Shown here in pieces: positions 1-5,481 of a DNA stretch of 9,580 nt. The stretch is from contig PKUI01000168.1 of assembly GCA_002869605.1 (NCBI GenBank), forward strand, positions 1 through 9,580. The letters run 5' to 3'. Every line of letters starts with the position of its first letter. The first letter of the stretch is position 1. The notes beneath the pieces were generated by a model. It worked only from the letters and a program-made list of their open reading frames with translations, had not been told where the DNA came from and ran no database searches. Source of the stretch: Desulfuromonas sp. (GTDB lineage: Bacteria; Desulfobacterota; Desulfuromonadia; Desulfuromonadales; SZUA-401). A program made the translations under genes and the position numbers.

Positions 1-459
1 CGGGGCGCGCTTGCGAGCCGGTTTCTTGGGGGTCTCCTCGGCCGGTGTGTCGCTTACCGCGGGAGTCTCTGAGGTCGTGGCCTCATCGGCCTTTTTGCGC
101 GGGGCGCGCTTGCGAGCCGGCTTCTTGGGCGTCTCCTCGGCCGGTGTTTCGTTTGCCGCGGGAGTCTCTGCGGTCGTGGCCTCATCGGCTTTTTTGCGCG
201 GAGCGGGCTTGCGGGCCGGCTTCTTGGGCGTCTCCTCGGCCGGTGTTTCGCTTGCCGCGGGAGTCTCTGAGGTCGTGGCCTCATCGGCCTTTTTACGCGG
301 GGTGCGCTTGCGAGCCGGCTTCTTGGGCTTCTCCTCGGCCGGTGTTTCGTCTGCTGCGGGAGTCTCTGTGGTCGTGGCCTCGTCGGCCTTTTTGCGCGGG
401 GTGCGCTTGCGAGCCGGCTTCTTGGGAGCCTCCTCGGCCGGTGTTTCGCTTGCCGCGGT
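1..459 (-). repeat. 99-bp tandem repeat array encoding a 33-residue H1-like tail in RNase E
   Basis: Copies begin at 1, 100, 199 and 298, with a partial copy from 397 that decays near 455-460. The period is exactly 99 bp, so the reading frame of rne is preserved. Each unit has a basic half (PKKPARKRAPRKKA, with R/P and A/T variants) and an acidic/Thr half (DEATTSETPA...ETPAEE). The copies differ at scattered bases, so the array is not a very recent amplification. It reaches the left edge and probably continues. The basic half resembles Lys/Ala/Pro-rich histone H1-like or AT-hook-like tails, a composition resemblance only. All three frames of the opposite strand are long and open here purely because of this composition. 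Confidence 0.93.
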
Positions 460-2355
460 GTCTTCTGCTGGGACAACGTCGTCGCTGGCTATGGAGTCTT
501 CCTCGCGGGTCGTGGTCGATGACTTCTTGCGTCCACCACGACTACCCCGCCTGCGGCTCGGGCGTTTTGCCTGTGTTGTGTCGTCAGCACTCTCGCTGCC
601 TGTCGTTGCGGCTTCGGGCTCGTCGGCGGCAGGAGACGATTCACCTTCGGTTGTGGGTGGAGTTTCCACGTTGGCTGCGGCCTCGCCTTCGGCCGGCTTC
701 TTCTTGCGGCGACGGCGGCGACGTTTTTTCTTGGCCGGGGCCTCTTCGTCGCCACTGTTGGCGCTGGCTTCGTCCCCGAGGTTGTCTTCAGTTTCGGGTC
801 GACTCAGCACCAGTTGCTCGTCCTCGGCGGCACGCAGCGGCACCTCGGCGAGAGCGACCTTGACCGCATCGTTCTTCTCGCGCTTGATGACCTCGAGTTC
901 ACCCGCCTCGGCAGCCAGTTCCGGGTTGGAATGGAGCTGGATTTCGGTCTTGTAGCGGCGCTCGAGTTCGACCAGTTCATCGCGTTTCTGGTTGAGCAGG
1001 TAGCTGGCGACCTCAAGCGGTACGGTGCCGACGATGCGGGCACTCTTGCCTTTGGCAACGGCGGCGTGGATACGGCGCAAAAAGGCAAGGGCGAGTGACT
1101 CGGGAGACTTGATGCGGCCGCTCCCCTTGCAGTGTTCGCAGGTCAGGTAGGAGGCCTCGGCCAGCGCCGGTTTGATGCGCTGACGGCTCATTTCGAGCAG
1201 GCCGAACTGACTGATGCGCCCCACGCTGATGCGGGCCTTGTCGAGCTTGAGGGCGTCCTTGAGGCGGCGTTCGACGTCGCGGTTGTGACTGTGCTTGGCC
1301 ATGTCGATAAAATCGATAACCACCAGCCCGCCGAGGTCGCGCAGGCGCAGCTGGCGGGCCACCTCGTCGGCGGCCTCGAGGTTGCTCTTGTAGGCGGTGG
1401 CCTCGATCCCTGTTTCTCCCGACATCTTGCCCGAGTTGACGTCGATGGCGACCAGCGCCTCGGTCTTGTCAATGACGATCGAACCGCCCGAGGGGAGCGA
1501 AACCTTGTTCTTATAGATGGTTTCGATCTGCTCTTCGATCTGGTAGCGGGCGAAGATCGGGCGGCGCTCCTGGTGGAGCTTGACCAGCTTGAGGTGGTCG
1601 GGCATCAACTGGCGGAAGAATTCGCGGGTTTCTTCGTAGATCCGCGAATCGTCGACCAGTACCTCGTCCATTTCAGTCGAGAAGTAGTCGCGAATGGTGC
1701 GCATTACCAGGTTCGATTCGCGGTAGACCAGCGCCGGAGCGCGGTTTTTTTCGGCCTGGGAGAGGATCGAGCGGTAGAGGCGTAGCAGGTAGTCGAGGTC
1801 GAGGCGCAGCTCCTCGGCGCTGGCACCGAGGCTGGCGGTGCGCACGATGTACCCGATATCTTCCGGGACCACCAGCGTCTTGAGCGCCTCCTTGAGCTGC
1901 TTACGCTCGTCGCCGGTGTCGATCTTGCGTGACATGCCGCGGGTGTCGGAGCCGGGCATCAGCACCATGAAGCGTCCCGGGAAGGAGAGGAAGGTGGTCA
2001 GAGCCGCCCCCTTGGTGCCACGCTCTTCCTTGACGATCTGTACCAGCAGTTCCTGGCCACGCGAAAGGAGTTCCTGAATACGTGGACGGCCCTTGCTTTC
2101 GTCGTCTTTTTTCTTCGGGTAGAGGCCGGTGTGGATCTCGCTCAGCTGCAGGAAACCGAGCCGTTCGGCGCCGTAATCGACAAAGGCGGCCTGCAGTCCC
2201 TGTTCAACACGGACCACGGTCGCCTTGTAGATGTTGCCTTTGGTCTGTTCGTGACCGGCAATTTCGATGTCAAGCTCGGAAAGGATACCGTCTTCGACGA
2301 TCGCCACCCGGTTCTCTTCGGGATGGGTGGCATTGATCAGCATTTTCTTGGCCAT
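1..2355 (-). CDS. rne: Ribonuclease E/G family endoribonuclease, 3' end outside window
   Basis: Single-strand-specific endoribonuclease of mRNA decay and rRNA/tRNA processing. 785 codons are visible and the frame is still open at base 1. Starting at ATG 2355 the N-terminus (MAKKMLINAT) matches the RNase E family. An S1 RNA-binding domain lies at about residues 38-125. The DNase I-like catalytic part has metal-binding Asp305 (in AIDVNSGK) and Asp348 (in VIDFIDM), and the Zn-link is Cys406/Cys409 (CEHC). These equal E. coli D303, D346, C404 and C407 with a constant offset of two, so the catalytic half looks intact. From about residue 520 the protein is low-complexity: a basic block at 542-553 (KKKRRRRRRKKK), an acidic/Ser stretch, then 33-residue repeats to the edge. 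In E. coli the tail scaffolds the degradosome and binds RNA; this tail shows no recognisable similarity and may do the same job by inference. RNase G is excluded by the long tail. The ribosome site is weak (AGG eight bases before ATG). Confidence 0.95.
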   Translation of the reverse strand, partial: MAKKMLINATHPEENRVAIVEDGILSELDIEIAGHEQTKGNIYKATVVRVEQGLQAAFVDYGAERLGFLQLSEIHTGLYPKKKDDESKGRPRIQELLSRGQELLVQIVKEERGTKGAALTTFLSFPGRFMVLMPGSDTRGMSRKIDTGDERKQLKEALKTLVVPEDIGYIVRTASLGASAEELRLDLDYLLRLYRSILSQAEKNRAPALVYRESNLVMRTIRDYFSTEMDEVLVDDSRIYEETREFFRQLMPDHLKLVKLHQERRPIFARYQIEEQIETIYKNKVSLPSGGSIVIDKTEALVAIDVNSGKMSGETGIEATAYKSNLEAADEVARQLRLRDLGGLVVIDFIDMAKHSHNRDVERRLKDALKLDKARISVGRISQFGLLEMSRQRIKPALAEASYLTCEHCKGSGRIKSPESLALAFLRRIHAAVAKGKSARIVGTVPLEVASYLLNQKRDELVELERRYKTEIQLHSNPELAAEAGELEVIKREKNDAVKVALAEVPLRAAEDEQLVLSRPETEDNLGDEASANSGDEEAPAKKKRRRRRRKKKPAEGEAAANVETPPTTEGESSPAADEPEAATTGSESADDTTQAKRPSRRRGSRGGRKKSSTTTREEDSIASDDVVPAEDTAASETPAEEAPKKPARKRTPRKKADEATTTETPAADETPAEEKPKKPARKRTPRKKADEATTSETPAASETPAEETPKKPARKPAPRKKADEATTAETPAANETPAEETPKKPARKRAPRKKADEATTSETPAVSDTPAEETPKKPARKRAP

Positions 2356-2773: not shown

Positions 2774-3484
2774 ATGGGCTCCGACCCGATCGTGATCGAA
2801 TATCGTTATAGGCTCCCCAGCCAGGAACAGGAAACCTTGACCTTGACGCTTGATCCGGTCAGCCTGACCCCTCTTGATCCGTTGCCCAATCCGTTACCTA
2901 ACTGGACGCTGCTCTCCTTCGAACAGTGCGAGAACTGTCCCCTCTCTTCCTCGGAGATGCCGGTCTGCCCGCTGGCGGCTCGCCTGGCGGTGCTGACGCC
3001 GCTGTGCAACAAGCTGATCTCCTTCGACATGGTCGACGTCGAAGTGGTAACCCGCGAACGGACCGTTTCGGCGAATGTCAGTGCAGAGCAGGGGATCTGC
3101 TCCCTGATGGGGTTGGTAAGCGCCGTCAGTGGTTGCCCGCATACCGCGTTCTTCCGCCCCATGGCCCGCTTTCATCTGCCGTTCGCGACTCCGGAGGAGA
3201 CGCTGTTCCGCTCCACCGGCTCCTACCTGCTGGTCGAGTACCTGCGCCAGCGCCAGGGGGAAACTCCCCACTACGACCTGTCCGGCCTGCAGGCGATCTA
3301 CGATCGTGTGAGCGAGGTCAATCGCAGTGTCGCGGAACGTCTGCGCGCGGCGTCGCGCACCGACTCGGCCCTTAACGCCATCGTGCAGCTCGATTATTAC
3401 GCCCAGGGGCTGTCATTTTCGCTGGAGAGGAGCCTCGATCATCTCTCCGAGATGCTGGCGCCGTTTTGGGCACAGTCCCACTAG
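2774..3484 (+). CDS. Conserved hypothetical protein with N-terminal Cys cluster
   Basis: A 236-residue soluble protein of unknown function. The start is fixed by AGGAGG at 2761-2766, seven bases before ATG 2774; the frame stays open upstream to 2699, but that part lies in the promoter. Six cysteines are visible: C52 and C55 (CENC), C65 (VCPL), C78, C109 and C121 (GCPH). The Cys-Pro pairs at C55, C65 and C121 suggest a metal or Fe-S site, but no known motif is matched. The middle (FFRPMARFHLPFA, then TPEET) and the helical C-terminus have no signal peptide or membrane segment. I recall similar Cys-containing proteins as a conserved hypothetical family in Geobacter-like bacteria; this is memory, not a search. 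It is divergent from rne, has its own promoter, and ends in TAG 64 bp before the ABC-F gene, with no terminator visible between them. Confidence 0.88.
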   Translation: MGSDPIVIEYRYRLPSQEQETLTLTLDPVSLTPLDPLPNPLPNWTLLSFEQCENCPLSSSEMPVCPLAARLAVLTPLCNKLISFDMVDVEVVTRERTVSANVSAEQGICSLMGLVSAVSGCPHTAFFRPMARFHLPFATPEETLFRSTGSYLLVEYLRQRQGETPHYDLSGLQAIYDRVSEVNRSVAERLRAASRTDSALNAIVQLDYYAQGLSFSLERSLDHLSEMLAPFWAQSH

Positions 3485-3532
3485 GCGTGGCGTTTCTATT
3501 TCAAGCGCAATCTTCCTTCCATAGCCCCCCTG

Positions 3533-3541
3533 TGTTATAAC
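3533..3541 (+). promoter_or_regulatory. Extended -10 promoter giving a leaderless or near-leaderless ABC-F mRNA
   Basis: TGTTATAAC: a TG extension one base before TATAAC (five of six to consensus). The -35 (around 3513-3518, TTCCTT) is weak. The -10 ends seven bases before ATG 3549, so the normal start point falls on or next to the A of the ATG. Consistently, there is no Shine-Dalgarno sequence; the bases before ATG are CAGCCCCC. Confidence 0.6.
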
Positions 3542-4349
3542 AGCCCCCATGTTGCAACTACGTGGAATTATCAAGGAATACGCGGGTAAGCGGATTCTCA
3601 ACCAACTCGACTGGCACCTGCGCCCCGGTGAACGGGTCGGCCTGTGTGGTGAAAACGGTGCAGGCAAGACGACCCTGCTGAAACTGCTCGGCGGCCGTAT
3701 CGAAATCGACGGTGGCGAACTGCAGTGCGCCAAGGGGACAACTGTCTGTTACCTGCCTCAGGATGGCCTGGTGCATGAAGGACAGAGCCTGGTCGAGGAG
3801 GTCCGCTCCGGGCTCGCCGAGCTGTTGGCGGCGGAGCAGGAGCTGCGCCGGCTCGAGGAGTCGATCTCCCGCACGCACGACGAACAGGAGCTGGCCCGCT
3901 ACGCCGAACTGCAGGAGCGCTTCGAGCAGCAGGGTGGCTACGCCCTCGATGCCGAGGTTGGCAAGGTGCTCGGCGGTCTCGGCTTCGTGCAGGCTGAGTT
4001 CGACAAGCCGTGCGAACAGTTCTCGGGTGGCTGGCAGATGCGCATCGCGCTGGCCAAGCTGCTGCTGCAGCGCCCCAACCTGCTGCTGCTAGACGAACCG
4101 ACCAACCATCTCGATCTGCCGGCCCGCGACTGGCTGGAGTCGTACCTTTCCAGTTATCCCGGCACCGTGGTGCTTGTCTCCCATGACCGTTTTTTTCTCG
4201 ACCAGGTGGTGACGCGCATCGTCGAGGTCTGGCACGGCCAGCTCACAGAGTATGCCTGCGACTATTCCCGCTACCTGGTACAGCGCGACGAACGGGTCAA
4301 GGCGCTGCGCGAAGCCAAGCGTCGTCAGGACGAAGAAGTGGAACGGATG

Positions 4350-4352
4350 TAG
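4350..4352 (+). other. In-frame amber codon in the ABC-F linker
   Basis: The local reading is VERM-TAG-AFINKFRYNANKA. The frame is identical before and after: bases 3549 to 5471 divide evenly into codons and all family motifs align in that one frame. The N-terminal product would be 267 residues, containing ATPase domain 1 and the first linker helix. TAG also ends the upstream gene at 3484, so it serves as an ordinary stop in this genome. Confidence 0.95.
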
Positions 4353-4385
4353 GCGTTCATCAACAAGTTCCGCTACAACGCCAAC

Positions 4386-4400
4386 AAGGCGTCGCTGGTG
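4386..4400 (+). promoter_or_regulatory. Possible reinitiation site for the ABC-F C-terminal half
   Basis: AAGG (4386-4389) lies eight bases before GTG 4398, the first plausible in-frame start after the amber codon, 45 bases downstream of it. Starting there would give a 357-residue protein ending at 5471, holding the end of the linker, all of ATPase domain 2 and the coiled-coil tail. The ribosome site is weak, and nothing shows that it is used. Confidence 0.25.
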
Positions 4401-4923
4401 CAGAGCCGTATCAAGCAGCTGGAGAAGATTGAGCGGATTGATTTGCCGCCGGAACGCAAACGGATCCGCTTCAGCTTTCCCGCTCCGCCCAAGGGGGGAC
4501 GCAGCGCGGTGGAGCTCAAGGGGGTAGAGCATGGCTACGGCGAGTTGCGGGTGCTTAACGGAGTCGATGTCACGATCGAGAAAGGGGATCGGGTTGCCCT
4601 GGTCGGTCCTAACGGTGCCGGAAAGTCGACCCTGATGCGCATGCTTTCGGGGGTGGAAAAGCCCCTGGTGGGGGAACGTGTCGAAGGGCACAACCTCGAG
4701 CAAGCCTACTTTGCCCAGGATCAGGCGCAGGTACTTGACGGCTCCCTGAGCGTGCTGCAGCAGATCAGCGACGAGGCGCCGGTGGCGATGGTCCCCAAGT
4801 TGCGTAATATCCTCGGCAGCTTCCTGTTCTCCGGAGATGACGTCGAGAAAAAGGTCAAGGTGCTCTCTGGTGGCGAGCGCAACCGCCTGGCGTTGGCCAT
4901 TCTGTTGCTGCGCCCGGCCAACC

Positions 4924-4960
<37 letters not shown>

Positions 4961-5481
4961 GCTCTCCAAGGAGGTGCTTCTCGATGCCCTGCAGGGCTAT
5001 GCCGGGACGCTGGTGTTTGTCTCGCACGACCGTTACTTCGTCGATGCGTTGGCAACCCGCATCATCGAGGTCGGGCAGGGACGGGTGACCTCCTACCACG
5101 GTAATTATGAGGACTACCTGCGCGCCAAGGAGCGTGAAGGGGAGTTAGGGATCAGCAGCCAGCGCGTCGAACAGCGCGCCGATGTCCCGGTTGCCGTAGA
5201 GAATGATCGGGAGGCAGAGCTCAGTTACGCCGAGCGCAAGGCGCAGCGTCGTCAGCAGCAGCGTCTGGAGAAGGCGCTGGCCGAAAGCGAGGCGCAGATC
5301 GAGAAGCTGGAAGCGGAAAAGATAGAACTCGAGGAGCGCATGGCCGACCCGCAGCTCTACCAGGACCAGGATGCCTGGCATCAGGCGACCGCCCGCTACG
5401 AGGAACTCAAGGAGGTGCTCGCCGCAGCGTATGCGCGCTGGGAAGAGCTGGGTCTTGAGCAGGTGAGTTAAGGGAGGGGAG

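Follow-up and report, generated by a model that had tools for sequence, protein, structure and literature searches.

A gene for an ABC-F protein in the window, the whole stretch of 9,580 nucleotides of Desulfuromonas DNA analysed here, is interrupted by an amber codon between its two ATPase domains, and the question raised by this locus is whether the TAG marks a recent nonsense mutation, a sequencing error, a functional split of the gene or a codon that is read through, the four options given in a preliminary description of this DNA. The TAG (4350-4352, plus strand; codon 268) was the sole internal stop between the ATG at 3549 and the TAA at 5469-5471, and the frame had 640 codons, counting the TAG, without a frameshift. 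According to frame, domain and motif evidence, the first piece (3549-4349, plus strand; 267 aa) contained the first ATPase domain and the first half of the linker, and the remaining frame (4353-5471, plus strand; 372 aa and the TAA) contained the other half of the linker, followed by the second ATPase domain and, at the C-terminus, PF16326. The eight ATPase motifs sought, four per domain, were all present, since both domains had the Walker A, signature, Walker B and H-switch motifs. The interdomain linker PF12848 (4221-4472, plus strand) was cut in mid-domain: of its 85 positions, the first piece covered 1-43 with its residues 225-267, and the second piece covered 45-85 with its residues 1-40. 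A single in-frame amber codon within the linker, two ATPase domains retaining their catalytic motifs and an unshifted frame, all proposed earlier, were thus borne out. The window gene showed the two ATPase domains of an ABC-F protein with the PF12848 linker between them, whereas both domains in a single open frame were found in the database protein P0001 and not in the window, where codon 268 intervenes. No Shine-Dalgarno-like sequence was seen upstream of the ABC-F ATG (3529-3548; 1.2 kcal/mol).

P0001 is an intact near-twin of 640 aa, encoded in a contig of 9,326 bases, and compared at the protein level it was identical to the window frame in 638 of the 640 residues. The two differences were Glu instead of the TAG at 268 and Gly instead of Cys at 67 (codon TGT, 3747-3749, plus strand), and both would need a coding-strand G-to-T change in the window if the residues of P0001 are ancestral. 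The column of residue 268 was occupied by Glu in 114, Gln in 2, Asp in 1 and Ala in 1 of 118 homologues (the 120 listed out of 7,999 over the threshold, minus the half-length P0002 and P0003), and the YheS chain 9vvi_W has Gln at this position, as counted by hand on the alignment. Comparison of the codon in relatives, a check of the kind that had been suggested for this site, gave GAG in 24, GAA in 7 and CAG in 1 of 32 distinct loci (35 before the removal of duplicates, drawn from at most the best 30 order-wide orthologue loci). Glu, encoded by GAG or GAA in 31 of these loci, and not Gln as had been assumed, is thus the usual residue of this group where the TAG stands. The view that the gene was otherwise perfect and the TAG its only lesion has also to be given up, because the Cys67 of the window was Gly in all 118 listed homologues, the near-twin included. 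An ABC-F orthologue was found in 124 of the 136 genomes of the order at a threshold of E 1e-170 (12 had no match at that level), and none of the 124 had an internal stop; five of these matches were partial, yet all of them covered residue 268. The stop of the window therefore lies beyond the chance pattern of the order.

By sequence, the best match among solved chains was YheS (9vvi_W), which shares with the gene the two ATPase domains, the PF12848 linker and a C-terminal extension; it differs in that the window copy is interrupted and P0001 scores below the cut-off of the YheS model PRK10636 of NCBIfam (425.2 bits against 917). Among the NCBIfam models listed, P0001 reached the cut-off of just one, NF000355, a broad model for ribosomal protection-like proteins (446.5 bits against 380); the other 14 were missed, among them each of the resistance ABC-F models (OptrA, Msr, Vga, Sal, Lsa, CplR, CarA and the producer type). 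We read the gene, from its sequence, as a YheS-like housekeeping-type ABC-F rather than as a proven YheS. Its neighbours were an RNase E/G gene (rng), a DUF6901 gene and genes for a ParA-like ATPase, a methyltransferase, a DUF4388 protein and a membrane protein. The ParA-like neighbour matched three Desulfuromonas or Desulfuromonadales metagenome-assembled genomes (MAGs), all three with an intact ABC-F gene directly upstream, and sister proteins of the ParA were found at identities of 93, 88, 87 and 82%. The RNase E/G gene (1-480, minus strand) has, as judged by eye, a C-terminal near-repeat tail rich in Lys, Pro, Ala and Thr, which runs out of the window.

In our judgement there is an even chance that the window gene, which encodes a conserved translation factor of the YheS-like ABC-F type in a bacterium of Desulfuromonadales type, is a recent, isolated nonsense allele, and a base-call error is nearly as probable. 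According to the codons of the relatives, a G-to-T-type change would have made TAG out of a Glu codon where the first linker helix ends, and translation would halt there, probably leaving a product of 267 aa that has a single ATPase domain and half of the linker. Such a fragment is unable to provide the clamp that two ATPase domains form in ABC-F proteins. The loss may be tolerated through two or three further ABC-F paralogues, which were found in three relatives and are presumed for the window; the 10 ABC-F matches of these relatives (3, 3 and 4) thus argue for a nonsense allele. The intact near-twin and the uninterrupted orthologues point in the same direction, and so does Cys67, because a second change in an invariant column is expected once selection is off. 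From the near-twin and the orthologues, recent nonsense mutation and sequencing error are the two of the four options that stood, and suppression and the split did not. In the same way, the earlier alternative of a very recent event or continued use was upheld in its first half, since a very recent event fits an otherwise sound gene (as an error does too), and continued use found no support.

A sister contig of 17,449 bases also favoured a nonsense allele, because its copy of the gene was broken independently. It comes from a sister species and encodes the ABC-F protein in two pieces, P0121 (241 aa) and P0003 (374 aa), with identities of 88% and 85%. As in the window there are two pieces, and the sister break fell within the first linker half, but the first piece ended at residue 241 and the second was called from Met267, in contrast to the TAG at codon 268 of the window. 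The sister stop would then lie at about codon 242, approximately 26 codons upstream of the window TAG, as far as can be told from a sister known from its proteins alone.

Comparisons between these copies gave a weak hint of recent relaxed constraint on the ABC-F gene. P0001 and the sister had 85 differences, four of them in columns at least 95% conserved, a share reached by 17 of 438 control pairs, and the mean column entropy of the differences was as low in only 8 of these mutually non-independent pairs; such an unusual frequency of changes at conserved and low-entropy columns agrees with a nonsense allele. The ABC-F/ParA distance ratio between window and sister (1.27) was the largest among 153 pairs, whose median was 0.46, and argues likewise, although a slow ParA in the clade may account for part of it, since long-term acceleration of the window ABC-F was not seen when rng (median 1.49 against 1.63 in 66 other pairs) or the membrane protein (median 1.18 against 1.29 in 120 other pairs) served as the yardstick. 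At 200 invariant columns the window ABC-F had an unusual residue five times, against a mean of 0.32 and a maximum of 4 in 118 controls; four of the five were common to P0001 and are therefore older than the stop.

An error of base calling or assembly in this metagenome-type contig, with an ordinary, intact gene in the organism itself, is a serious possibility that we place somewhat below an even chance. The intact near-twin argues for such an error, both private differences lie in columns that almost never vary, and both are of the G-to-T type, the change given by oxidised guanine according to PMC5994075. This shared type weakens the case for a nonsense allele, because it suits damage or a base-call error. 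However, the type of the stop mutation says little, because G-to-T is anyway the most frequent class among the single-step changes that would give a stop in the ABC-F gene (78 of 225). Moreover, rng and the membrane protein and ParA genes, the three other window genes compared, had no excess of G-to-T: their unusual residues numbered 4, 1 and 1, and one of the six fitted this change. This speaks mildly against G-to-T errors spread across the contig and favours a nonsense allele, and the sister contig, broken at a different codon, also stands against an error.

One of the 10 ABC-F matches in the three relatives, a more distant paralogue (38% identity) at 1501-3351 of L008, on the minus strand, was interrupted once, by a TAA at position 476 of the match. 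It belongs to the Desulfuromonas MAG of L001, and an error in the window fits with it; such breaks therefore also arise elsewhere in metagenome-assembled ABC-F genes. The window gene resembles ordinary nonsense alleles and the broken gene calls of metagenome assemblies in that one copy carries a single lesion, the relatives are intact and the break point is not shared, and no difference from them was found. Such an early stop in a single copy of a conserved gene with an intact near-twin looks like an ordinary fresh mutation or sequencing error and not a special mechanism, and the finding is of small import.

It is improbable, in our estimate, that the ABC-F gene of a small Desulfuromonadales clade is under recent relaxed selection, with the linker cut independently in two populations, either through loss of the factor or with halves that still pair. 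If the sister break is real, the clade would serve as a natural experiment on whether this ABC-F factor can be dispensed with or is able to function as two halves.

A functional split, in which two half-proteins act as a pair and the second is made by restart at GTG 4398 or later, is very unlikely. The sister contig is likewise in two pieces, with a second one called from Met267, but the break points differ (codon 268 against about 242) and Met267 sits directly before the window TAG, so that the start of the sister would be unusable in the window; no shared split design therefore emerges from the two copies. The GTG proposed in the preliminary description as the restart (4398-4400, plus strand) had an anti-Shine-Dalgarno pairing of -3.5 kcal/mol, near the background mean of -2.7 (SD 2.8), and the five neighbouring genes tested gave -5.2 to -12.1 kcal/mol. 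The split thus received little support, as no Shine-Dalgarno signal rose clearly over background and the Met267 start cannot serve both copies. Another GTG, at 4509, is preceded by a G-rich stretch with a pairing of -10.7 kcal/mol, which would favour a split, but a start there would drop the second half of the linker. P0001, moreover, is whole.

Amber suppression or pyrrolysine insertion would have the TAG read through and the whole 640-aa protein made. In its favour, the frame and every motif downstream of the TAG are kept, and pyrrolysine use by some marine Deltaproteobacteria is reported in PMC8318568. However, the neighbouring DUF6901 gene normally terminates at a TAG (3482-3484, plus strand), as domain match and frame indicate: the Pfam domain was matched to position 219 of 222 before this TAG, and reading through it would add 34 residues and overlap with the ABC-F start. 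TAG also terminates 9 of 41 long open reading frames in three relatives. A PylS match over the cut-off was obtained in none of the 136 genomes of the order, against one of 14 control genomes; at E 1e-3 there were matches in 115 of the 136 and in 13 of the 14 controls, which are probably cross-hits to other synthetases, and only the cut-off count was used. The tRNA and Rfam scans within the 9.6-kb window gave no match, nor did a search of viral contigs for an exact 30-base pattern. At codon 268 P0001 has a sense codon, and an in-frame stop conserved among relatives, as looked for in a suppressed amber codon, was found in none of the 124 orthologues. With TAG as an ordinary terminator in this DNA and its relatives and PylS missing over the cut-off from the 136 genomes of the order, readthrough is left without support and is very unlikely, the least probable of the explanations.

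Two further residues of the ABC-F protein, Cys at 237 (4257-4259) and Asp at 347 (4587-4589), both common to P0001, depart from Gly and Glu columns that are otherwise invariant (117 of 117 homologues).
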